From the IMG/VR virus record IMGVR_UViG_3300009194_000009, positions 1 through 64,000 of that record: DNA of 64,000 nucleotides; one strand, written 5' to 3'. A program made the translations under genes and the position numbers. The notes under the pieces were generated by a model that did not search any database, had not been told where the DNA came from, and saw only the letters and a program-made list of their open reading frames with translations. The DNA is from a virus. This document shows, one piece after another, positions 1,175 to 20,652 of this stretch. Within the stretch, counting starts at the first letter, position 1, and the number at the start of each line of letters is the position of its first letter.

Positions 1175-3028
1175 ATGAGTGAAGCATTAAAACAATATCA
1201 TAAAGTTTCAAGACATTTGAGCGACGAAGAACACGTTCTTCTTAGACCACACATGTTTATTGGTTCAACATCCAAAGAGAAATACACTCAGTTCATAATC
1301 AATGAATATAGGGACATTGAGTATATCCCCGGACTGTTGAAATTGGTTAATGAAATTATCGATAACTCTGTGGATGTGGCAATCAAAACTAAATTCAAGT
1401 ACAGTAATAAAATTGAAATTGATATGACTGCTGATTATGTACGTGTTCGGGACAATGGAACCGGGATACCAGTAGTCAAAGTATCAGATCGAGACGGCAA
1501 TGATGTATGGAACCCGGTTATGTCGTGGACGTACACAAAGGCTGGTACTAACTTTGACGATAGCATAGAAGATGCACGACAAAGCATAGGTATGAATGGT
1601 GTTGGCTCGACAGTGGTTAGCATCTTCTCTAAAAAGTTCGTAGGGGAGACTTGCGACGGATCTAAGAAGCTAATACTTCATACTAGCGAGAATAACCATG
1701 TAGATGATGTTAAAGTTGGACGCAGTAAAAAGAATTACACACAAGTATATTTCGAACCGGACTTCAGTCGATTTGGTATTCAATCGTTTGATCAAGAGCA
1801 TATTGATGTTATCCGTGATCGAATTGAAAAACTTGCCGCGATATACCCAGAAATTGAGTTCGTATTCAACGAAACAAAGATTTCATATAAAGATACTACC
1901 GAGTTTCTAAAACATTTCGATAGCAAGAATGTTTATGAAAAAGATGAGAAAAGCATGATTGCCTTTCTTCCCAACACTACAGAAGAATTTAGATTCATAT
2001 CTGTTGTAAATGGTCTTAATATATCAAAGGGTGGTTCGCATATCGACCATATAATGGACAGCCTGTGTAAGTACCTACGACCTGCGATTAATAAAAAATA
2101 TAAAATTGATGTTGTACCGTCGCAAATAAAACAGCATTTGTTTGTTATCAACTTCACTAGAGATTTCCCTAATCTTAAGTTTGATTCACAGACAAAAGAA
2201 CGTATAACTAATGACAAGTCTGAGGTTGAAGGTGTTTATGACAGTGTAGATTTTGAAAAGCTTGCACAAAAGGTTCTCAAAACCGAAGAAATTATCATGC
2301 CAATTGTAGAATTCCAGCTTATGAAGGCGGAACGTGCAGAGCGTAAAAGACTACAGGCAGAACAGAAAAAAGCCCTTAAGGAAAAGGTTGCAAAACATCT
2401 ACCTCCAAAGTCGAGAGATAATGCTAAAAATATTCTTTACATTGTAGAAGGTGATAGTGCAAAAGGAAACTTCATGACTGTTCGTAATATGGACTATCAT
2501 GGGGTGTATCCGTTAAAAGGTAAGTTTGTGAATGTATCTCGTATTAACAAAATGGATATATTGGCACACAATGAATGTAAAGAGCTTATGTCCATCCTTG
2601 GGTTGAAAATTGGTGAACCTGCACCGAGTAAGTTAAAGCATAACTACGGAAAAATATATATTACAGCGGATGCTGATGTGGATGGCTATTGCATTACCTC
2701 TCAGTTGATAAACTTCTTCAATCTTTGGCCTGAGTTATTTGAAAGAGGTATTATTCATATTCTATATACACCTATTATGGAAATACGAAAAGGTACTAAG
2801 ATTGTGAAGTCATTCTATAGTTTAAGTGATTACAAGAAATATAAAATTAAAAATGGTGAATCATTAAAATACCTAAAAGGTTTAGGTTCATTAGGCGTCA
2901 ATCAGTATCGAAAATATCTTATAGATGAACCTGTCGTTGAAGTCGTAGAGAATGATGAAGGGGCAAATGATATTCTCGATGTAGTGTTTGGTGAAGATGC
3001 GAAATTACGTAAGAAATGGTTGGAGTGA
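1175..3028 (+). CDS. 39: DNA topoisomerase II large subunit (gp39-gp60 fused)
   Basis: ATP-dependent type II topoisomerase subunit that works with the next gene product to pass duplexes through each other during phage replication. The N-terminal GHKL ATPase has the Bergerat-fold motifs EIIDNSVD (about residue 62), DNGTGIPV (about 93) and GMNGVGSTVVS (about 143). The transducer domain follows, then a TOPRIM domain with YIVEGDSAKGN (about 424) and the metal-binding DADVDG (about 503). T4 splits this protein into gp39 and gp60; here both parts are one 617-residue chain, as in cellular enzymes and many T4 relatives. It ends directly against gene 52, so the two are co-expressed. The ribosome site is weak (TAAGG about 12 bases upstream). 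Confidence 0.95.
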   Translation: MSEALKQYHKVSRHLSDEEHVLLRPHMFIGSTSKEKYTQFIINEYRDIEYIPGLLKLVNEIIDNSVDVAIKTKFKYSNKIEIDMTADYVRVRDNGTGIPVVKVSDRDGNDVWNPVMSWTYTKAGTNFDDSIEDARQSIGMNGVGSTVVSIFSKKFVGETCDGSKKLILHTSENNHVDDVKVGRSKKNYTQVYFEPDFSRFGIQSFDQEHIDVIRDRIEKLAAIYPEIEFVFNETKISYKDTTEFLKHFDSKNVYEKDEKSMIAFLPNTTEEFRFISVVNGLNISKGGSHIDHIMDSLCKYLRPAINKKYKIDVVPSQIKQHLFVINFTRDFPNLKFDSQTKERITNDKSEVEGVYDSVDFEKLAQKVLKTEEIIMPIVEFQLMKAERAERKRLQAEQKKALKEKVAKHLPPKSRDNAKNILYIVEGDSAKGNFMTVRNMDYHGVYPLKGKFVNVSRINKMDILAHNECKELMSILGLKIGEPAPSKLKHNYGKIYITADADVDGYCITSQLINFFNLWPELFERGIIHILYTPIMEIRKGTKIVKSFYSLSDYKKYKIKNGESLKYLKGLGSLGVNQYRKYLIDEPVVEVVENDEGANDILDVVFGEDAKLRKKWLE

Positions 3029-3037
3029 TTGAAACAG

Positions 3038-4399
3038 ATGGCAAGACGAACTAAAAAAACAGACATAGTGAAAATTACAGACTATATCAATACCCGATAT
3101 AGAGATTATTCGATTTATACTAACAATGAACGTGCAATACCGAGTATTATTGATGGTTTTAAACCAGTTCAACGAAAAATAATTTACACCTCGATGAAAG
3201 AATGTTCTAAAGAGTATACTAAACTATCATCCTTGGGCGGTGTATTAGCCAAGGTTGCAGCATACCACCATGGGAATGTTTCTGCTGAGAATGCCATTAT
3301 TAAAATGGCACAGGATTTTAATCAGAACCTCCCATTACTAGACTATGAAGGAACCTTTGGTACACGTCCCGTACCAGATGCTGGTGCAGCAAGGTATATA
3401 TTTGTGAAGCTTGGGGAGAACTTTGAAAAGATTTTTAAAGATAATGATATACTTCCTCAGTCATTGGATAAAGATGATCATCCAGAGCCCCTTTATTATC
3501 TTCCTATCATACCAACCATATTGTTGAATGGTGCTAAAGGAATGGCAGTTGGCTTTGCGGTAAATATCTTGCCACGTGACATTGTTGACATCACTGAATC
3601 ATGTATTAATTACGTTTCTAAAGGTAAAACACTAAGTGTAATGCCGAAGCTCAAGCCTTTCAATGGAACGTTTGAACAGGTTAGTGAGAAAAAGTATATC
3701 TGTAAAGGTGTATTAGAACATGAGCGTCTTAATGTCTATCGTATAAAAGAACTACCACTGAAGTATATTCATGAGAAATATGTCAGTCATTTGGATTCCC
3801 TAGTTGAGAAGGGCGTGATTAAACGGTATGACGACGACACCTCTGATGTGTTTGATTTCAGAATTCACGCTTCTCGTGGTATAGATATGAAGACACTAGA
3901 AAAAGAATTGAATCTCTCGGAACCCATTACTGAAAATTACAGTGTGATAGAAGACTTTGATCAAAGTGGTGATGCTGAAGATCTCGGAAATATAAAGATT
4001 AATACGTATGAATCGGTAGAAGACATTATAAAAACATTCTGTGATTTCAGGATTACATTTTATGACAAGCGCATTTCTCATAATTTATTCAAACTCAAGA
4101 ATAGTATTCGTCTAAAAGAAGCAAAGATCGAATTCATTAACGATGTATTGAGTAACAAGATCAATATTAGGAACGTGACACGTAAACAGCTTCAGGATAC
4201 ATTGGTTAAAAGAGGGTATGATGAAGAGCTTATTGAGAAAGTAATCTCAATGCCTGTATATTCGATGACCAAAGATAACATTGACAAAATGAATCGTGAA
4301 ATAGCTGCGCACAGAAAAGATATAGACTGGTGGAATAAACAAACCGCTAAGAAACTATACCTCAAAGATTTACGTGATCTTTTGAAAGAATATAAATAA
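3038..4399 (+). CDS. 52: DNA topoisomerase II medium subunit (gp52)
   Basis: The DNA cleavage-religation subunit, partner of the upstream ATPase subunit. The GyrA/ParC-type signature is clear: ERAIPSIIDGFKPVQRK near the N-terminus, then AAYHHGN, and the active-site tyrosine in AARYIFVKLG (about residue 120). A C-terminal helical region follows. The length of about 453 residues matches T4 gp52 (442). The open frame reaches back to TTG at 3029, but ATG at 3038 sits at a workable distance from GGAG (3022-3025), which lies inside the end of the upstream gene, so I start there. The two subunits are almost contiguous, implying translational coupling. Confident. Confidence 0.95.
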   Translation: MARRTKKTDIVKITDYINTRYRDYSIYTNNERAIPSIIDGFKPVQRKIIYTSMKECSKEYTKLSSLGGVLAKVAAYHHGNVSAENAIIKMAQDFNQNLPLLDYEGTFGTRPVPDAGAARYIFVKLGENFEKIFKDNDILPQSLDKDDHPEPLYYLPIIPTILLNGAKGMAVGFAVNILPRDIVDITESCINYVSKGKTLSVMPKLKPFNGTFEQVSEKKYICKGVLEHERLNVYRIKELPLKYIHEKYVSHLDSLVEKGVIKRYDDDTSDVFDFRIHASRGIDMKTLEKELNLSEPITENYSVIEDFDQSGDAEDLGNIKINTYESVEDIIKTFCDFRITFYDKRISHNLFKLKNSIRLKEAKIEFINDVLSNKINIRNVTRKQLQDTLVKRGYDEELIEKVISMPVYSMTKDNIDKMNREIAAHRKDIDWWNKQTAKKLYLKDLRDLLKEYK

Positions 4400-4418: not shown

Positions 4419-5465
4419 ATGTTTATTTTACTACTATTCTTGAGTGCATTATCTATAGCTGCGGTAGCAGCATATTTCTCAATAACGGGGTTGGTGGCAG
4501 TATTTTCTGCCAGCGCCCTTTCCGTAATTATCATGGGGTCTGTACTAGAGGCAGGCAAACTAGTGGCCATCTCATATGCTTATCGATTCTGGAATATCAT
4601 TGGCTTTATACAAAAATCGTCATTGATGTTTTTTATTGTGACTCTAATGGTTATTACTTCCATCGGTATTTTCGGTTTTTTATCTAAAGCGCATTTGGAA
4701 AAGGTAGGACCGCAAGAACAATATGTTTTACAAATAGAGCGCCTTGAAGAAAAGGTTGATATGGAACAGACCAAAATAGACCGTAATCAGAAAGTCTTGG
4801 ATAACCTAGATGACGCATTGGATAAGTATATTGAACTTGGGTTTGTGACTAGAGGCTTGGAGCAGCGAGAAGAACAGTCTGATCAACGCTCTAGCGTCGA
4901 AGAAGCTATATCTAAGAGCGAATCTAGAATCGATGATTATAACAGTGATATTGCCGAGTTGAAGAGCAAGATGCAGGAAATTGAACTTGAAGTCGGTCCT
5001 ATAAAATATATTGCGGAGTTATTGTTTGGTGATACATCTAATTCCATTGATAAAGCTGTAAAGATTTTGATTTTACTGCTAGTATGTACCTTCGATCCAC
5101 TTGCTGTGATGTTGCTCATAAGTGCTAACCATGCGCATATACATCGCAATGATCATCGGGTACGTTCAGAATTCTCAGTATTTGAGAAAGATGATACTGT
5201 ACAAGATAGTAAAATGATGTATGATGATCTTACTGATGATCAGAAAGAAGAGCATATTCGAAAGGTACATGAGTACTTAAACAATATGGACGAATCTGAT
5301 ACTACAAGTGATAAAGATACTGAAGACAAATATAAAGATATGCTCGATAATCAACATGAAGATACAAGTAATGAAGATGTTGTGGAGAATGAATCTCCAT
5401 ATAAATTACACAACCTTGAGAAAGCGAAGAAAAAGTCATCTTGGTTGCCCAATTTTAAAAAATAA
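4419..5465 (+). CDS. Four-helix membrane protein with coiled coil
   Basis: A 348-residue integral membrane protein of unknown function. Hydrophobic segments lie at about residues 1-20, 23-45 and 66-88. A long charged heptad-like region (about 100-185) probably forms a coiled coil, and another hydrophobic helix (about 208-232) contains FDPLAVMLLISAN. The C-terminal 100 residues are acidic and hydrophilic, ending in a basic KKKSSWLPNFKK. From memory, proteins with this order and an FDPLAVMLLI-like helix occur in marine T4-like phages, so it is probably a conserved membrane or cell-takeover factor. It sits between topoisomerase and ClpX. A TATAAATA box overlaps the end of gene 52 but leaves little room for a ribosome site. 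Confidence 0.7.
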   Translation: MFILLLFLSALSIAAVAAYFSITGLVAVFSASALSVIIMGSVLEAGKLVAISYAYRFWNIIGFIQKSSLMFFIVTLMVITSIGIFGFLSKAHLEKVGPQEQYVLQIERLEEKVDMEQTKIDRNQKVLDNLDDALDKYIELGFVTRGLEQREEQSDQRSSVEEAISKSESRIDDYNSDIAELKSKMQEIELEVGPIKYIAELLFGDTSNSIDKAVKILILLLVCTFDPLAVMLLISANHAHIHRNDHRVRSEFSVFEKDDTVQDSKMMYDDLTDDQKEEHIRKVHEYLNNMDESDTTSDKDTEDKYKDMLDNQHEDTSNEDVVENESPYKLHNLEKAKKKSSWLPNFKK

Positions 5466-5477
5466 TAAGAGGTATAT

Positions 5478-6695
5478 ATGAAGTGTAGAACCTGTCCTAA
5501 GACTGATAGCGATATTGATTTCTTTATCTCGATTGATGAGGTAGGAGATGAGGGAATTTGTGGTGAATGTGTAAATGCAATGCATCGTCACTATCTGGGA
5601 TATTTGAATAGAAATACCTCTGGTGTTAAAGCTAACGATTCTAAAATTAACATCCCATCTACAAAAACATTGGTCGAATATCTTGATCAGTATATTATTG
5701 AACAGGAAACAGCAAAAAAAGACATTGCGATAGCAGTACGAAACCACTATAAGCGTTTGAGCTTACCGCAAGATGAACAAAAAGATTTAGACAAAAGTAA
5801 TATTTTACTAATGGGTGAATCAGGTACAGGTAAGACGGCCATTATTCAACATATCGCACGTTTCATTAACGTTCCGATGGTTGTAGTGGATACTACAAGT
5901 ATGTCTGCATCTGGATATACTGGTGATGATGTTGAACAATGTATTAAAGAACTATACGCAAAAGCTGATAAAAACAAAGAACTGGCAGAAAAGGGAATTG
6001 TGTTTTTGGATGAAATTGATAAAAAGAAAAAGTCTAAAGGTGGTGGGTCTACCTCTGATGTGAGTGGGGAAGATGTACAAAAGTCATTTCTACGTCTTCT
6101 CGAAGGTAAAGAAATAAAGGTTGCTAAAAATGTAGGTATCGATACTAAGGACATACTCTTCATTGCCGGTGGTTCTTTTGTAGGATTGGAAAAGATTGTA
6201 CAAAAGCGCTTAGAAACCAATTCTATTGGCTTTGGACGTGCAAAGAAGGATGAAGACATTGATATGGGTGAAATCTATAAACATGTTAATACTGACGATC
6301 TTGTCGAGTTTGGTATGATTCCAGAATTGGTTGGGCGTCTACCTATTCATACGTATACTAATACCCTAACTAGAGATGACATTAAGCGGGTAATGACTGA
6401 GACGAAGAATAGTGTAGTGAAGCAGTTCGAGACCTTGTTTGCGGTTGACGGTGTAAAATTACAATTTAAACCAGAAGCTGTTGATTTTGTAGCCGATAAG
6501 GTAGTTAAAGACAAAATTGGCGTTCGTGGTCTTCGTAAGGTATTGGAAAAAGAACTACGACATGTTCAATATGACATTGAGGAATACACAAGTCGGAACA
6601 TACAAACTGTAGTTGTTGAATTTGATTCAAAAAGTAATTCATTAAAGACTAAGTTTCGTTACAATAGAAAAAAGAAAAATAATAACAATAAATAA
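5478..6695 (+). CDS. clpX: ClpX-like AAA+ unfoldase
   Basis: ATP-driven protein unfoldase that feeds substrates to a ClpP peptidase. The full ClpX architecture is present in 405 residues (E. coli 424): zinc-binding domain with Cys3, Cys6, Cys28 and Cys31; Walker A GESGTGKT (about 114-121); pore-loop sequence SGYTGDDVE, corresponding to GYVGEDVE; Walker B VFLDEIDK; a SIGFG tripeptide loop matching the IGF loop that docks onto ClpP; and the sensor 2 segment GVRGLRKVLE. No ClpP gene is in the window, so it would have to use the host peptidase. The C-terminal tail is basic (RKKKNNNNK). It heads a proteostasis cluster with bS21 and ClpS. The start is preceded by AAGAGG. Confidence 0.93.
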   Translation: MKCRTCPKTDSDIDFFISIDEVGDEGICGECVNAMHRHYLGYLNRNTSGVKANDSKINIPSTKTLVEYLDQYIIEQETAKKDIAIAVRNHYKRLSLPQDEQKDLDKSNILLMGESGTGKTAIIQHIARFINVPMVVVDTTSMSASGYTGDDVEQCIKELYAKADKNKELAEKGIVFLDEIDKKKKSKGGGSTSDVSGEDVQKSFLRLLEGKEIKVAKNVGIDTKDILFIAGGSFVGLEKIVQKRLETNSIGFGRAKKDEDIDMGEIYKHVNTDDLVEFGMIPELVGRLPIHTYTNTLTRDDIKRVMTETKNSVVKQFETLFAVDGVKLQFKPEAVDFVADKVVKDKIGVRGLRKVLEKELRHVQYDIEEYTSRNIQTVVVEFDSKSNSLKTKFRYNRKKKNNNNK

Positions 6696-6736
6696 CTATT
6701 CATATTGAGAAAATATTAGGAGAGTAATTTAATAAT

Positions 6737-6985
6737 ATGAAAAGATTTAAGGGTGAACCTCATAAAATCCAAGGGTTGAAAGTTGAGGTAAGAAATGGTA
6801 ATGTAGACCGTGCATTGAAAAAACTTCGTAAGAAGGTTGATGAAGACGGTCGTGTTAAAGAGTATAGTCTTAGAAAAGAATTTCAGAAACCTTCAATGAA
6901 AAAGAAGCTTGATAAAAAACGCGCAATCAAGCGTTACGAAAAGAAGCTTCGTGAAGAAGAAAAGAACCTTCAGAAATTTGACTAA
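6737..6985 (+). CDS. rpsU: Ribosomal protein bS21 homologue
   Basis: An 82-residue, very basic protein aligning along its whole length with bacterial small-subunit protein bS21. The N-terminal strand LKVEVRNGNVDRALKKLRK corresponds to the bS21 start, followed by a short linker, the YSLRKEFQKPS segment (bS21 REFYEKPT) and the C-terminal basic helix KRAIKRYEKKLREEEK. bS21 binds near the 30S platform by the anti-Shine-Dalgarno helix and affects initiation. A phage copy could replace host bS21 and bias initiation to phage messages; that is inference. Phage-encoded bS21 is known from marine viruses. AGGAGAG precedes the ATG. It lies between clpX and clpS. Confidence 0.88.
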   Translation: MKRFKGEPHKIQGLKVEVRNGNVDRALKKLRKKVDEDGRVKEYSLRKEFQKPSMKKKLDKKRAIKRYEKKLREEEKNLQKFD

Positions 6986-6998
6986 AAAGGAGTCGATA

Positions 6999-7301
6999 AT
7001 GTCTAGTAAGACAGATGTTGTAGAGTTGGACGAAATTAAAGTCGTTGAACCAAAAAGGTACAAAGCTATTATCCATAACGATGATACTACACCTGTAGAT
7101 TTCGTTGCTATGGTTCTTACAGAGATCTACCGTAAATCAGTAGATGAAGCGTGGGATCTAACCATGCAAACCCATAATGACGGAAGTGCAGTTATTAAAT
7201 ATGGCTTAAAAGGATACCTTGAGAGTCTTTCTGATGATGCTCTTGCTGCCGCAAGAAAATATGGATTTAAAGATTTCACTATTACTAATGAAGAAGAATG
7301 A
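6999..7301 (+). CDS. clpS: ClpS-like adaptor
   Basis: A 100-residue protein with the ClpS fold signature: RYKAIIHNDDTTPVDFVAMVLTEI matches the start of the ClpS core (the HNDD-TP-FV pattern), and the later segment has the two helices and final strand. In bacteria ClpS delivers N-degron substrates to ClpA and blocks other ClpA substrates. Here it lies beside clpX, so the partner could be host ClpA, the phage ClpX, or both. The open frame extends back to 6909, but AAGGAG at 6987-6992 precedes ATG 6999, and earlier starts would overlap bS21 widely, so I use 6999. It overlaps the next gene's likely ribosome site. Confidence 0.88.
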   Translation: MSSKTDVVELDEIKVVEPKRYKAIIHNDDTTPVDFVAMVLTEIYRKSVDEAWDLTMQTHNDGSAVIKYGLKGYLESLSDDALAAARKYGFKDFTITNEEE

Positions 7302-7308
7302 GGTGGAT

Positions 7309-7626
7309 GTGTTACAAATTAATGCTGGATATAAAAAAGGTGATGCTGTAACAGTATTACTGGATAATATGACTGAAATTGTAGGTCGTTATGTAAACGA
7401 CGATGAAAAGACTATTGTACTAAGTTGTGTTCGAATGATTGTACCACAACCCAATGCACAAGGTGGTGTCGGTATTGCTCTACATCCACTATCATATAGT
7501 GCGGAAGATGCCTATTCATGTGACATTACATTTGAAAAGGCCAAGATTGTAACATATATGAAATCTATGGAGTCTGTAGATAAACAATTACGCTCAGAAG
7601 ATTCTGGGATTGTGAGTCCTTCATAA
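7309..7626 (+). CDS. Small beta-rich protein, possibly Sm-like
   Basis: About 105 residues from GTG 7309, which has GAGG (7300-7303) overlapping the clpS stop. ATG 7288 is an alternative without a ribosome site. The pattern is beta-rich: KKGDAVTVLLDNMTEIVGRY, then alternating hydrophobics, a proline/asparagine-rich VPQPNAQGG loop and a short C-terminal helix. From memory, small proteins of this shape (charge-alternating strand, NPR/VPQP loop) recur in marine T4-like phages, and an Sm-like barrel is a reasonable guess, but I cannot assign a function. Confidence 0.55.
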   Translation: MLQINAGYKKGDAVTVLLDNMTEIVGRYVNDDEKTIVLSCVRMIVPQPNAQGGVGIALHPLSYSAEDAYSCDITFEKAKIVTYMKSMESVDKQLRSEDSGIVSPS

Positions 7627-15733: not shown

Positions 15734-18213
15734 ATGTCTTATGTAAGTGCATTTATTGACGATGATGATATGGTTGTCATCGAACGAGTAAATGGTGAAA
15801 GAACAATAAAGAAAGATAAGGTGGAGTATGTCTACTATACACTAGACCAGTATGGTGACCACAAAACCATATTTGACGAAAGCTGTACCAAACATATCTA
15901 CGACAATCGCCGGGAATTTTATGGTTCCATGAAACAGTATCCTAAAGATATTGTCTATGAGAACGATGTTAATCCAGTATTCCGGTATCTCAGTAAAAAT
16001 TACGACTTCGAAGAAACACCCGATCTTAATGTTGCATTCTACGATATCGAGGTGGCTTTCCATAAAGAAACTCGGTATTCAAATCCAGAGTTGGCCGAAA
16101 ATGAAATCATATCTGTAGCAGTATACCAAAACTGGTCAAATACTATGTTCATGATTGCCCTGCCACCACCCACTATGACAATGAAAGAATGCGAAGACAT
16201 ATGTACTAAGATTGAGTCCGAAGAATACGAGTATGACTTGAAGTGTATTATGGTTGACTCAGAAGCATCACTTTTAAAGTGTTTTCTTTTGTTGATCGAA
16301 GATAGTGATGTTATATCCGGTTGGAACTCCGAATCATACGATTTCAAATACATTTATAATCGAATTCCTAAAATCATAGGCAGGCACTACCTCAAAGAAC
16401 TATGCATAGGCGGTAAAGAACCTAATAGGAAAACAGTAAGGAACGATAAAACTAAACAGTTCGAAGAGATATACACACCAATTGGTCGTGTACACCTCGA
16501 CTATATGAATCTATATAAGAAATATACATATATAGAACAACCGACCTATAAGTTGGATCATATTGCTTATATCGAACTTGATGAACGCAAGGTCGAATAT
16601 TCTGGATCGTTAGATCAGTTATATAAAGAAGATTTTGAATTATTCGTAAGATATAACATTAAAGATACCTATCTTGTTAAGCGAATTGACGATGAGAAAG
16701 AGTTTATTGATCTGACAAACCTTCTGGCACACAACAACGGTGTACTGTTAGAGACAACGTTGGGTACCGTAGGGATCACTGAACAAGCAATCATTAACCA
16801 AGGTCACTATTATAGTGAAGATGAGCTTATATTCCCATCTAAGCCTGAGAAAGATGAAAACATTTCAGGCGCAGCAGGCGCTTTTGTTTCTCCACCCAAA
16901 ATTGGGATACGTAAGCTTGTTGCAGGTAACGATATCAACTCTCTGTATCCGTCAGTGATTCGTGCGCTTAATATGAGCCCTGAAACACTTATTGGTCATA
17001 TTAATAGTGACGAAACTGATCAAATCGTTATTGATAAAGTAGAAAGCGGTGAATGTGAATCATTTGCAGAGGCATGGCAACCATTCTTCAATACTATTGA
17101 ATTTGAAAGAGTAATGAAGGGTAGTGATGAAGAGGTAACATTTGAATTCAATAGATCCGATGAAACAGTTACTGCACCAGCCTATAAAATCAGAGATATG
17201 ATTTATAATGACGATAAGTTCACAATTAGTGCAAATGGTACTGTTTTCAGTCGAGAGAAACAGGGTGTTATTCCAGCTCTTCTAGAGCGTTGGTATTCTG
17301 AACGTAAGAAGATGCAAGCTGAGGCTGAAAAGTGGGAAAAGATTATGATTGAAACCACTGACCCTGAAGAGAAAGAGAAAGCAACAAAAGAATATAAGTT
17401 CTGGGATCAGCGTCAGATGGCTAAAAAAATTAATCTTAACGCGTAAAGTACTGCGCCTTCATATAGTAATATATGTCGAATAACTCCTTTAATTGCTGGG
17501 AACTCCTATAAGGACAATCAGCAGCCAAGCCCAAACGGGAAGGTTCAACGACTAGTCGTAAGACGTACACTCAAGTGAGTGGAAAAGGGGAGCAACCAAT
17601 ATGGTTGATGATATAGTCTGATCTTGTATGGTAACATACAGCAGTTCATAAGAGAACGGGACAGAATTAACGACTCTGTTCGAACATTAATGTGTACGGT
17701 GCATTGCTTAATAAATACTGTCGTTTTTATGACAAGCGTATTGGTCAATCAACTACATTAACTGGTCGTAGTATCACCAGACATATGAGTTCGCATATCA
17801 ATGAACAGATTTGTGGTACGTATACACATTTAGGTGATTCTATTATATATGGTGATAGTGTCGAAGGCGATACTATTATCAATACCACTATGGGTGATAT
17901 GACCATAGAGCAAGCCTTTTCTATGGGAAATAAGTTCTGGAATCAGGAATCTCACGGGAAAGAGTATAGTCACAATGATAACATGAAAGTTAAGACCTTT
18001 GATCCTGATAAGGATGAAACGTATTATGGCGATATAAACTACATATACCGCCATAAGACGAGTAAACCTAGGTGGAAGATTGTTGACAGTGACGGCAATG
18101 AGGTCATAGTGACCGGAGATCACAGTGTCATGATCGAACGTGATAACACTATTGTGAAAGTAAAACCCAGTGATATACAGGAAGGTGATGTTCTGGTATC
18201 GTTCGATGAATAA
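15734..18213 (+). CDS. 43: DNA polymerase N-terminal part with intron and split-intein N fragment
   Basis: Family B replicative polymerase, N-terminal portion. The reading frame is 15734-17444 joined to 17693-18213 (743 residues). Visible motifs: Exo I FYDIEVAF, Exo II GWNSESYDFKYIYNRI, Exo III YNIKDTYLVKRI, Pol A NDINSLYPSVI, and Pol B KKINLNALYGA, which forms only after the group I intron is removed. The chain reaches YGD of motif C at 17848-17856 and then becomes the N fragment of a split intein (118 residues). Without RNA splicing, translation stops at TAA 17444-17446, exactly at the exon edge. The remaining Asp of motif C is encoded by another gene (19135-20652), so neither part can polymerise alone. 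AGGAGG precedes the ATG. Confidence 0.92.
17445..17692 (+). ncRNA. Group I intron in DNA polymerase gene
   Basis: A 248-base intron without an open reading frame. Conserved core elements are seen in order: P (AATTGCTGGGAAC, from 17491), Q (AATCAGCAGCCAAG, from 17516), R (GGTTCAACGACTA, 17542-17554) and S (GATATAGTCTGATC, about 17609-17622). The 5' exon ends in T (17444), which can form the G-U pair of P1: exon GCGU 17441-17444 with intron GCGC 17453-17456. The intron ends in G (17692). Joining 17444 to 17693 restores GCG-TTG-TAC, giving NALYGALLNKY, the expected motif B. Most like the subgroup found in DNA polymerase genes of other large phages. Boundaries are inferred from exon continuity. 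Confidence 0.88.
17857..18210 (+). other. Split intein N-terminal fragment (pol-c site)
   Basis: 118 residues starting with Ser (SVEGDTIINTTMGDMTIE) directly after YGD. Block A is this first strand set; block B is VTGDHSVM with the T-x-x-H pair that activates the N-terminal splice bond. The fragment ends at DIQEGDVLVSFDE and a stop codon, as split inteins do. Its C-terminal partner is at 19135-19266 beyond a homing endonuclease gene. Similar in sequence to the complete second intein at 19273-19743. Confidence 0.9.
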
Positions 18214-18224
18214 TTGCACCTTGG

Positions 18225-18232
18225 TATAAATA
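18225..18232 (+). promoter_or_regulatory. Late promoter box, homing endonuclease gene
   Basis: TATAAATA, the exact T4 late consensus, 41 bases before the endonuclease start. The expected transcription start falls within the left arm of the adjoining palindrome. Confidence 0.7.
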
Positions 18233-18260
18233 GTTATGGAGACACGTGTCTCCATAACTA
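18231..18260 (+). repeat. 30-base perfect palindrome upstream of homing endonuclease
   Basis: Each arm is 15 bases with no loop (TAGTTATGGAGACAC and its reverse complement). The right arm touches the ribosome site AGGAG (18260-18264). In long transcripts from the polymerase promoter it could fold and hinder the ribosome site; a transcript begun at the late box would lose part of the left arm. Confidence 0.85.
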
Positions 18261-18272
18261 GGAGAAACATAT

Positions 18273-19145
18273 ATGCCAAAGTGTTTAGAATGCGGAGTTG
18301 AATTACCGCGATTGCAATGGACTCATTTTAAGTATAAGTGTACCGGAAGGTTCTCTAATGGACGAGAATATCAGGAGTTTTACAAGGGTGCCAAATTAGT
18401 AGATGATGATATTGCTAAAAAAACGTCTCTTACTCTTGGGAACTTTATCAAGAAATATGGGAAGGGCGTTGGTACTGAGAAGTGGAATGAGTACCGTCAG
18501 AAACAAGCATATAGTAATACGTTTGAGTATAAAAAACAAAAACACGGTTGGTCAGAAGAAGATTACAGTGAGTTTAATAAATCTAGGGCGGTGACGTTGG
18601 AAAACTTTATTAAAAAATACGGTATTGAAGAAGCAACGGAAAAGTTTGATCGGTATTGTAAGCGCCAAGCATATACCTGTTCAGAAGAGTATTTCATTGA
18701 AACGTACGGACTCGATGAAGGGCGTAGGAAATACAATAATTTTGCTAAAATTAGGGTGGGAAACGTTTTACGCCTATATTCACAGGGTATTTCAAAAATA
18801 GAAAATGAGGCATATAATGCATTGAAATGTGTGTGTCCTGCAATAGAACACCAAGTGACACTTGATGGATCTTACTTTGGACCATATGATTTTGGGTCCA
18901 TAGAAAGAAAAAAAGTCATTGAATTTTATGGTAGTTATTGGCACTGTGATGCACGGATTTATGAAGCTTCGTATCATCATAGCCAAATAGATAAGAATGC
19001 CAGAGCAATTTGGAACCATGATGCACGAAAAAGAAGCTATGCATTGAATCAAGGTTATAAAGTATATGTGATTTGGGAAATGGATTGGATGAATGACAGG
19101 GAAAATGTTATTGAAAAGGTAAAAAGGTGGTGGAGTGAAAGCTAA
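18273..19145 (+). CDS. Vsr/EDxHD-type homing endonuclease within the split intein
   Basis: A 290-residue free-standing endonuclease gene between the two halves of the split intein. The N-terminus has a zinc-finger-like CLECG...H...C pattern (Cys4, Cys7, His17, Cys22) common in phage homing enzymes. Residues about 50-165 contain three similar helix-turn units (NFIKKYG...TEKW; NFIKKYG...TEKF; FIETYG...RRKY), probably DNA-binding modules. The C-terminal domain (about 185-285) has the Vsr-like fold signature: FGPYDFGSIERKKVIEFYG, YWH, an IWNHDARKRSYALNQGY helix and VYVIWEMDW. It should cut uninterrupted polymerase genes and spread the arrangement. It ends inside the start of the next gene (11-base overlap). 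Confidence 0.85.
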   Translation: MPKCLECGVELPRLQWTHFKYKCTGRFSNGREYQEFYKGAKLVDDDIAKKTSLTLGNFIKKYGKGVGTEKWNEYRQKQAYSNTFEYKKQKHGWSEEDYSEFNKSRAVTLENFIKKYGIEEATEKFDRYCKRQAYTCSEEYFIETYGLDEGRRKYNNFAKIRVGNVLRLYSQGISKIENEAYNALKCVCPAIEHQVTLDGSYFGPYDFGSIERKKVIEFYGSYWHCDARIYEASYHHSQIDKNARAIWNHDARKRSYALNQGYKVYVIWEMDWMNDRENVIEKVKRWWSES

Positions 19146-19266
19146 AAGAACAAAAGTGGTTTCGGTAGAGCAACTTGAGGATTTTTCCGACGAGTACGTA
19201 TATGATGTTGGTATGTGTAATAGTGAGCATAATTGGTTTTTTGGTAACAACATACTTCTGAAGAAT
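19135..19266 (+). other. Split intein C-terminal fragment
   Basis: 44 residues with block F DEYVYDVGMCNSEHNWFFG and block G NNILLKN followed by Thr. The penultimate residue is Lys rather than the usual His, which is tolerated in some inteins but may need help for Asn cyclisation. The +1 residue is Thr of extein YGD-TD. Confidence 0.88.
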
Positions 19267-20652
19267 ACGGATAGTGTTCGTAAGGATACTCTAATCGAAA
19301 CCAGCATGGGAGAATTAGACATTGAATCATTATTTGAAGAATGCTCAATAAAGTGGGAAAATCATGGTAAAGAGTATGCCGCTGATGAACGATTGAAAGT
19401 ACCTTCGTATGAGAATGGTAGTGTCCTATGGAAAGTACCGGACTATATATACCGTCATCGAACAAAGAAGAACATGTTCCAAATAATTACAGCTTCAGGG
19501 AACAACGTGTTTGTCACAGAGGATCATAGCTGTATGACTGTGTGTGAGAATGGCCATATGGTAGAGAAAAAACCACATTCGTTACAGACAGGAGAAAATG
19601 TTATTATTTATCGAGATACGAAACCTGTCATGGAACAAATAGCGGATGTTGTTCACACAGGAGAGATAGATGATTATGTCTATGATATTGGTGTTGATGA
19701 AGACACCCCTTACTTTTTCGCCAATGGTATATTAGTTCATAACTCATCGTATTTCTCCGTCTATGAGGCTTATATGGCATCTGGTGATGAAGAAAAACAG
19801 TCAATGGCCAAAGCTATGTTCGATGATCGTGATCTAGCCGTGCAGATTTATGATTCTATTTCAGAAAAAACTAATGAAAGTTTCCCATCTTTCATGAATG
19901 AAAGATTTAACACTGGGATCGATAATGGAACTATAATTAAGGCAGGTCGTGAAAACCTTGCAAGTCATTCATTGTTTATTAAGAAAAAGCGTTATGCTAT
20001 GAATTTGTTTGATAAAGATGGTATTCGACTTGATAAGAACGGTAAAAGTGGTAAATTGAAGATCATGGGTCTTCAAATAAAAAGGTCAGATACCCCTAAA
20101 ATGATCCAAGATGCGTTGAAAGAAGGTATGGATATGCTTCTCAATGGTGTTCCTGAGAATGAAGTGATCACATACTTTACTGAATTCAAAGATGAACTGT
20201 CGCAAAAATCACCATGGATTTTAGGACGCCCGAGTGGTGCAAACGCGGTTAAACACTATACAGACCTGCACTATAAGTATGTGAACGGGGAAATAAGTAA
20301 AAAACCTACCATACCGGGAGCGATTGCAGGAGCAATTACATGGAATGAGCAATTGGACATTAATAATGAAGAACATATTGAAAGAATTGGTGATCAATCT
20401 AAAGTTGTTACCTGTAAACTGAGGAAAAATGATTTTGGTTATACGAATATTTCGTATTTGACTGACCAGACCCAATTTCCTGATTGGTTTAAAGAAATGC
20501 CATTTGATACAGAACTAATGTTAGAAACAATATACTATAAACCGTTACTAACAATCTTTGGTGTTCTTGGATGGGATGTGAACCTTATAAGGAAAGGTAC
20601 CAAATTTAAAGATATGTTCATCATGGATGATGACGATGAAGAATTCTTTTAA
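19135..20652 (+). CDS. 43: DNA polymerase C-terminal part with intein C fragment and second intein
   Basis: 505 residues in four parts: split intein C fragment (1-44), two extein residues Thr-Asp (45-46), a complete mini-intein (47-203), and the polymerase C-terminal extein (204-505) beginning SSYFSVYEAY. After both splicing events the chain reads YGD-TD-SSYFSV, a standard motif C. The later KKKRYAMNLFDKDG is the KKRY primer-binding motif, and the acidic end FKDMFIMDDDDEEFF may contact the sliding clamp. Total spliced polymerase is about 929 residues, close to T4 gp43 (898). The start is GTG 19135 with GGTGG/GGAG just upstream, inside the endonuclease gene, so translation of the two is coupled. 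Confidence 0.92.
   Translation: MKAKRTKVVSVEQLEDFSDEYVYDVGMCNSEHNWFFGNNILLKNTDSVRKDTLIETSMGELDIESLFEECSIKWENHGKEYAADERLKVPSYENGSVLWKVPDYIYRHRTKKNMFQIITASGNNVFVTEDHSCMTVCENGHMVEKKPHSLQTGENVIIYRDTKPVMEQIADVVHTGEIDDYVYDIGVDEDTPYFFANGILVHNSSYFSVYEAYMASGDEEKQSMAKAMFDDRDLAVQIYDSISEKTNESFPSFMNERFNTGIDNGTIIKAGRENLASHSLFIKKKRYAMNLFDKDGIRLDKNGKSGKLKIMGLQIKRSDTPKMIQDALKEGMDMLLNGVPENEVITYFTEFKDELSQKSPWILGRPSGANAVKHYTDLHYKYVNGEISKKPTIPGAIAGAITWNEQLDINNEEHIERIGDQSKVVTCKLRKNDFGYTNISYLTDQTQFPDWFKEMPFDTELMLETIYYKPLLTIFGVLGWDVNLIRKGTKFKDMFIMDDDDEEFF
19273..19743 (+). other. Complete mini-intein (YGDTD/S site)
   Basis: 157 residues from Ser (SVRKDTLIETSMGELDIE) to HN (GILVHN), followed by Ser. Block B is VTEDHSCM; blocks F and G are DDYVYDIGVDEDTPYFF and ANGILVHN. 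No endonuclease domain. It is clearly related to the split intein two residues upstream: both share the SV..DT.I.T.MG start, HGKEY, a Y-IYRH-T-K segment and a VT.DHS.M block. Confidence 0.9.

Follow-up and report, generated by a model that had tools for sequence, protein, structure and literature searches.

A phage gene row of ClpX, bS21, and ClpS that probably belongs to a phage-encoded Clp system

Homologues of ClpX, ribosomal protein bS21, and ClpS lie side by side in a 64,000-nucleotide stretch of viral DNA, referred to here as the window, which raises the question of what such a row does for a phage. A sequence-only reading of this DNA proposed that the phage retains the ClpP-docking loop of ClpX while encoding no ClpP, and therefore redirects the host peptidase, taking over protein turnover together with ribosomes. 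The explanation favored here, with a probability of roughly 60%, is that the three genes are part of the phage's own Clp system, co-expressed with a small-subunit factor. An inference from absence on a genome fragment is corrected and replaced by a testable jumbo-phage pattern, the gene-by-gene coupling of the unfoldase ClpX to bS21 or IF3.

The three genes are intact, neighboring, and in one orientation at positions 5478–7301 (Table 1). They are separated by 41 bases (ClpX to bS21) and 13 bases (bS21 to ClpS), and 12 bases precede ClpX; gaps throughout the co-oriented row range from 0 to 41 bases. The row starts with a UvsY-like gene and ends with two genes of no recognized family, which are followed by convergent genes on the opposite strand. 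The start of ClpS is best placed at an ATG preceded by AAGGAG. The hydrophobic protein upstream of ClpX has a homologue at the equivalent place in the phage locus L001 (69.5% identical) and in Salicola phage SCTP-2 (gene 195), and the gene directly downstream of ClpS is matched in position by a similar gene of L001 and by an unnamed gene, 191, of SCTP-2. Scans for promoters and terminators returned nothing beyond what shuffled sequences give. Against L001, pN is far below pS for ClpX (0.128 vs 0.78), bS21 (0.119 vs 0.64), and ClpS (0.251 vs 0.84), indicating that all three are maintained as proteins under purifying selection; no dN/dS is given for ClpX and ClpS because their silent sites are saturated in this comparison. 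The earlier description of a ClpX with a zinc domain and an SIGFG loop adjoining bS21 and ClpS is borne out by profiles, motifs, and gene coordinates.

Table 1. Genes of the ClpX row and its flanks, with positions in the window.
Feature	Position	Strand	Basis or remark
Type II topoisomerase large subunit	1175–3028	+	PHROG 543, 669.8 bits; co-oriented with the ClpX row
Type II topoisomerase medium subunit	3029–4399	+	PHROG 551, 472 bits
Hydrophobic protein (membrane-type, by eye)	4419–5465	+	No Pfam or PHROG match
Phage ClpX, 405 aa	5478 (ATG)–6695 (stop)	+	Zinc domain, AAA+ core; NCBIfam, alignment, fold model
bS21 homologue, 82 aa	6737–6985	+	Pfam PF01165, TIGR00030, PDB bS21 chains
ClpS adaptor homologue, 100 aa	6999–7301	+	Pfam PF02617, alignment to E. 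coli ClpS, fold model
Gene directly 3′ of ClpS	7309–7626	+	GTG start from sequence; no Pfam or PHROG match

To survey how often the row recurs, six phage ClpX proteins served as the profile query against viral contigs, and the 80 top-ranking loci of a larger set were kept. Five loci in the bacterial tig-clpP-clpX row and one duplicate of Atu_ph07 were removed, and the loci of the window and L001 were added with those of four named phages, giving 80 phage-type loci. Records of Acinetobacter phage MD-2021a were set aside as phage evidence because their clpX lies in such a tig-clpP-clpX row; one contig of that name (L006) also carries a TonB-dependent receptor gene and looks bacterial. Among the matches listed, the gene immediately downstream of ClpX encodes a 30S factor in 63 of the 80 loci, bS21 in 35 and IF3 in 28, at a distance of at most 65 bases or with overlap. 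An overlap of exactly 4 bases, the usual sign of translational coupling, occurs in 17 of these 63 listed pairs; open reading frames were taken from the first start codon, and overlaps longer than 4 bases may therefore be overstated. Within 10 kb downstream of ClpX, ClpS is present in 62, bS21 in 59, and IF3 in 28 of the 80 listed loci, counts that are lower bounds because 12 loci have less than 5 kb of downstream sequence. Seven of the 80 listed loci have none of these partners, and some of the seven group with bacteria in the ClpX tree. None of the three partners neighbors ClpX in 85 bacterial loci, 80 of which are genome-contig loci with about 3 kb or less downstream (three with less than 300 bases) searched with profiles made from phage proteins. 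The link between protein turnover and the ribosome claimed by the sequence-only reading is thus not a local accident (63/80 listed phage-type vs 0/85 bacterial ClpX loci), and the survey of related phages that it called for finds the cluster in many giant-phage loci.

The named relatives show how far the arrangement varies. Genes 192–197 of SCTP-2 (MF360958) have the same order as the window, with a topoisomerase pair, an unassigned protein, ClpX, bS21 (gene 193, unnamed and recognized by profile), and ClpS. SCTP-2 differs from the window phage in that its ClpX is 47–48% and its ClpS 35% identical, and its genome is 440 kb. In Pseudomonas phage PA5oct (MK797984), ClpX is directly followed by 30S protein S21, two further genes, a heat-shock protein gene, and ClpS; unlike in the window, no topoisomerase genes occur in the stretch examined. 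Agrobacterium phage Atu_ph07 (MF403008; PMC6102473) shares ClpX beside topoisomerase genes with the window, whereas IF3 follows its ClpX and its ClpS lies by thymidine kinase and small heat-shock protein genes. Bacterial ClpXP and ClpS–ClpA have in common with the window the domain build, zinc finger, Walker motifs, ClpP-docking loop, ClpS fold, and N-degron pocket, but bacterial clpX mostly lies behind tig-clpP. As side observations, a small heat-shock protein gene adjoins ClpS in PA5oct (L003, 7221–8070), Phosso (L007, 1306–2752), and Atu_ph07 (L021, 1465–2869), with a thymidine-kinase-type gene between the two in Phosso and Atu_ph07, and downstream of the ClpX-bS21-ClpS stretch of PA5oct lie genes for an FtsH homologue and for a membrane protein that interacts with FtsH (L003, 9641–11113).

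The pairing could simply be an order inherited from one ancestor that secures shared expression timing, with ClpX and bS21 or IF3 having no action on each other. In the ClpX tree, 53 of 61 dereplicated phage proteins form one clade (SH-aLRT 96). The ClpX proteins of the window, L001, and SCTP-2 fall outside this clade on a long branch, but a tree that unites all 56 in a single clade fits better and is not rejected (AU p 0.92). The tree therefore allows inheritance of the row from one ancestor, after which it was kept or partly broken, as in the window lineage, which has no IF3, and in Phosso, where ClpS has moved. Consistent with timing alone, the IF3-bS21-ClpS row of Vibrio phage 2.275.O (L008, 3117–4348) does not have ClpX directly in front; the NTPase gene that precedes it was considered as a ClpX and rejected (20% identity, no zinc domain). 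However, the pair is retained, among the matches listed, in 49 of 61 rows after removal of those more than 90% identical and in 28 of 35 at a 60% threshold, while the surroundings change, for example in Phosso, where ClpS is about 16 kb from ClpX. This reading, to which we give nearly an even chance, is compatible with a phage-encoded Clp system.

The window ClpX scores 376.8 bits against NCBIfam PRK05342 (ClpX), above the cutoff of 359, and 344.4 bits against TIGR00382, below the cutoff of 370.75. Its model (pLDDT 81.6) superposes on ClpX 3hws with Z 35.9 and rmsd 1.8 over 304 residues. Zinc-finger cysteines C3, C6, C28, and C31 are all present, and the CxxC...CxxC pattern is found in all 80 listed phage-type proteins. 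Walker A (GESGTGKT), Walker B, the arginine finger, and sensor 2 are present, and the docking loop reads S-I250-G-F-G, placing the IGF tripeptide at 250–252. The pore loop noted by the sequence-only reading exists, though as GYTG rather than GYVG, and that reading missed the loss of the RKH loop. This loop, which we take to lie at the pore entrance and to take part in ssrA tag recognition in E. coli ClpX, has by our count 14 residues in the window, L001, SCTP-2, and L079 and 24 residues, the full length, in all 85 bacterial proteins; in the model, the region is closed by a tight hairpin. A literal RKH occurs in 84 of 85 bacterial and 35 of 80 listed phage-type ClpX proteins. The region is of full length in Atu_ph07 (as RKN) and altered but of full length in PA5oct. 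The window protein is a ClpX-type unfoldase with an RKH-loop exception, not a canonical ClpX. Given the lost loop, ClpX of the window lineage probably lacks efficient recognition of ssrA-type tags and would act on a narrower, phage-chosen set of substrates.

The window bS21 matches Pfam S21 (PF01165) over residues 15–66 with 44.7 bits (cutoff 27) and TIGR00030 with 40.3 bits (cutoff 28.95), and it carries about 14 extra N-terminal residues. IF3 was not found in the 93,417-base linear virus record to which the window belongs (G000), in the related 239-kb linear contig G001, in SCTP-2, or in PA5oct, suggesting that the translation half of the cluster is reduced here.

The window ClpS scores 63.6 bits against Pfam ClpS (PF02617; cutoff 23) and falls below the cutoff for all eight NCBIfam ClpS equivalogs. 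Its model (pLDDT 87.8) matches Caulobacter ClpS 3dnj with Z 17.0 and rmsd 0.8 over 81 residues. In E. coli numbering, assigned through alignment to 1mbu, the N-degron pocket residues N34, D35, T38, and H66 are kept in the window, L001, and SCTP-2; N34, D35, and H66 presumably hold the amino group of the N-degron. Positions 79 and 84, which as E79 and K84 we assume to bind the ClpA N domain in E. coli, are G and L in the window, N and L in L001, and K and K in SCTP-2, so that SCTP-2 keeps K84. In the other 54 dereplicated phage proteins, position 79 is E (53) or Q (1) and position 84 is K (52) or R (2). Position 62 also departs from the bacterial form, being M in all 14 bacterial proteins kept for this count and T in 38 of the 57 phage proteins, including that of the window. 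With its ClpA-docking residues altered, the window protein is best described as a ClpS-fold adaptor whose role as a ClpA adaptor is putative. From these sequence facts, we infer that the window lineage may have a private ClpS–ClpA pair or a new N-degron preference. As a separate observation, L7/L12 shares this fold (Z 8.8 to the window model), and the ClpS of Vibrio phage 2.275.O is annotated as "L7/L12/ClpS-like" (L008, 3117–4348); what has been reported as L7/L12 in jumbo phages may therefore in some cases be ClpS.

ClpP was not found in the window, in G000, or in G001, whose bases 117–210 kb are collinear with the window's record and whose ClpX is 82% identical to that of the window. The possibility of a hidden ClpP in G000 or G001 was rejected, because an unfiltered profile search of 1,316 open reading frames gave nothing below E 0.09. 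The earlier statement that no ClpP is encoded here therefore holds for the window and its 93-kb record, but this record is a fragment of the genome. Five of seven records have ClpP, namely, SCTP-2 (gene 122), PA5oct, Phosso, Atu_ph07, and Vibrio phage 2.275.O, which are all five of the large named relatives searched. A further search of 29 records gave a ClpP match in 22; 15 of the 29 are phage-type and longer than 200 kb, and 13 of these match, one weakly (G013, 80 bits). ClpP is encoded by all 11 further records above 200 kb in which ClpX lies beside bS21, IF3, or ClpS, although some look like near-copies (L115, L117, and L140; L088 and L095). Together with SCTP-2, PA5oct, Phosso, Atu_ph07, and G001, 15 of 16 cluster-bearing records above 200 kb carry ClpP, G001 being the exception.

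These counts bear on the proposal that a ClpX without a phage ClpP docks on host ClpP and takes over the host peptidase. In its favor are the conserved IGF-type loop and the two ClpP-free records, and a docking tripeptide (hydrophobic-G-F/Y/L) in 80 of 80 listed phage-type and 85 of 85 bacterial ClpX proteins makes binding to host ClpP plausible regardless of a phage ClpP. The proposal is nevertheless not borne out, given ClpP in 15 of 16 large cluster records and the fragmentary state of the window's record, and we consider it unlikely. The no-ClpP premise most likely rests on an incomplete genome, and the apparent borrowing of a host protease by this phage is probably an effect of that incompleteness. 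A phage ClpP elsewhere in the genome, which the sequence-only reading had named as counting against it, is nearly at hand through the relatives, though not outright, as this genome is incomplete and its nearest relative, G001, shows no ClpP. No stretch of G001 clearly corresponds to the ClpP neighborhood of SCTP-2 (genes 111–125), and a ClpP-free lineage is therefore possible; true absence and a cut-short G001 both fit. The DNA polymerase was tried as a test of completeness, and its presence in G001 gives no sign that this contig is incomplete. Used as bait in viral contigs for a ClpP of the window's clade, SCTP-2 ClpP retrieved one 16.5-kb contig (45% identity), and the window topoisomerase, used as bait for larger relatives, matched only G001 and an 8-kb contig.

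The choice offered for ClpS by the sequence-only reading, binding to phage ClpX or to host ClpA, is incomplete, as it omits a phage ClpA. G001 encodes a 741-residue ClpA-type protein at 106297–108522 with a recognized Clp_N domain (21.8 bits, cutoff 20.7) and the docking loop SIGFN; collinearity would place it about 9 kb past the point where the window's record ends. A 748-residue ClpA-type open reading frame in SCTP-2 is 57% identical to that of G001 and has the loop SIGYV but no recognized Clp_N domain. The docking tripeptide is found by pattern in 14 of 15 phage ClpA proteins compared, Clp_N is found in 12 of the 29 records, and ClpA also occurs in PA5oct, where it and ClpP lie elsewhere in the genome, and, with ClpP and ClpS, in Atu_ph07. 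With a phage ClpA in G001 and, by homology, in SCTP-2, ClpS need not turn to host ClpA or to ClpX. Read by eye, the N domain of ClpA in both G001 and SCTP-2 has an altered HE...EH stretch and lacks a conserved helix motif. We infer a possible co-change of ClpS and ClpA in two genomes only, those of L001/G001 and SCTP-2; some of these ClpA positions are also changed in PA5oct, Vibrio phage 2.275.O, and Phosso.

The row is intact, tightly packed, and under selection; its order recurs, and relatives carry ClpP and in many cases ClpA, which together point to the phage's own Clp system. The phage would supply a degradation set of its own, consisting of ClpX, ClpA, ClpP, and the adaptor ClpS, and ClpX and ClpS would be made together with bS21. 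The IGF loop of ClpX would dock mainly on a phage ClpP encoded outside this fragment. ClpS would gather substrates by their N-terminal residue and deliver them to a co-changed phage ClpA, not to host ClpA. Phage bS21 may replace host bS21 on 30S subunits and favor phage messages. ClpX may also act on the ribosome itself, for which the gene pairing is the only evidence.

A bolder variant treats the row as a ribosome-remodeling cassette, in which ClpX would pull a host factor off the 30S platform to make way for phage bS21 or IF3 while ClpS and ClpA form a private pair. The factor removed might be the host's own bS21 or IF3 or one involved in ribosome assembly or hibernation, with the phage replacement co-translated; in the window lineage, ClpS–ClpA would be insulated from host ClpS and ClpA, and its N-degron preference would be shifted (T for M62). 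A mitochondrial parallel is described in the review PMC9368063, in which loss of CLPP leads to buildup of the rRNA chaperone ERAL1, an accumulation that the review also notes to be inconsistent across studies. This variant is a long shot. If the pairing is functional, phages may exchange ribosome parts by active unfolding and not by competition alone. The window lineage contributes two natural variants, a ClpX lacking the RKH loop and a ClpS lacking the residues that usually dock ClpA. Quite improbable, too, is a ClpX that serves phage replication or virion assembly as a peptidase-free unfoldase with incidental neighbors: topoisomerase genes adjoin ClpX in the window, L001, SCTP-2, Phosso, and Atu_ph07, and a replication role is suggested in PMC6102473 and PMC11242549, but the docking tripeptide kept in 80 of 80 listed phage proteins would be needless for it, and topoisomerase genes lie beside few other loci, as judged with profiles built from only four and two phage sequences.

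Both the Clp sets of jumbo phages and the occurrence of Clp genes close to bS21 have been published. Atu_ph07 is reported to have seven Clp proteins, with ClpX adjoining topoisomerase (PMC6102473), and AP-J-162 has clpX beside IF-3 and topoisomerase (PMC11242549). A survey of 224 jumbo phages lists ClpP, ClpS, ClpA, and ClpX and takes ClpS to serve host ClpAP (PMC7824862), and in a study of 900 phages, the genes counted within ten genes of bS21 include those of two Clp proteases (50 and 47 cases) and of Hsp20 (127 cases) (PMC9723584). Joining of phage bS21 to host 30S subunits has also been proposed (PMC7162821 and PMC9723584). A literature search outside most subscription papers and bioRxiv found no account of ClpX-bS21-ClpS as one unit, of ClpX-bS21 next-gene pairing, of a ClpX that has lost the RKH loop, or of a ClpS that has lost its docking residues. 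The cluster is real and largely of a type already known, and its variant features merit testing.

Elsewhere in the window, a family B DNA polymerase gene (15734–20652) is interrupted by a group I intron at 17435–17641 (Rfam, 95 bits). An intein N-half begins at about 17857 and ends at a stop at 18213 (TIGR01445, 26.6 bits); it is followed by a separate Vsr-like endonuclease open reading frame at 18273–19145 (weak, 21.5 bits) and by the C-half, which extends to about 19266 as judged by eye. A second, contiguous intein starts two residues later (about 19273–19743; TIGR01445, 34.0 bits; TIGR01443, 30.0 bits). The arrangement resembles a "fractured gene" with a split intein, next to which a second intein lies nearly in contact; the G001 homologue is a single 931-residue frame. 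The intron stretch 17498–17687 is 78–86% identical to DNA of unrelated Acinetobacter and Staphylococcus phages and of an uncultured gut phage in the ten matches listed, two of which fall under genes named HNH endonuclease.
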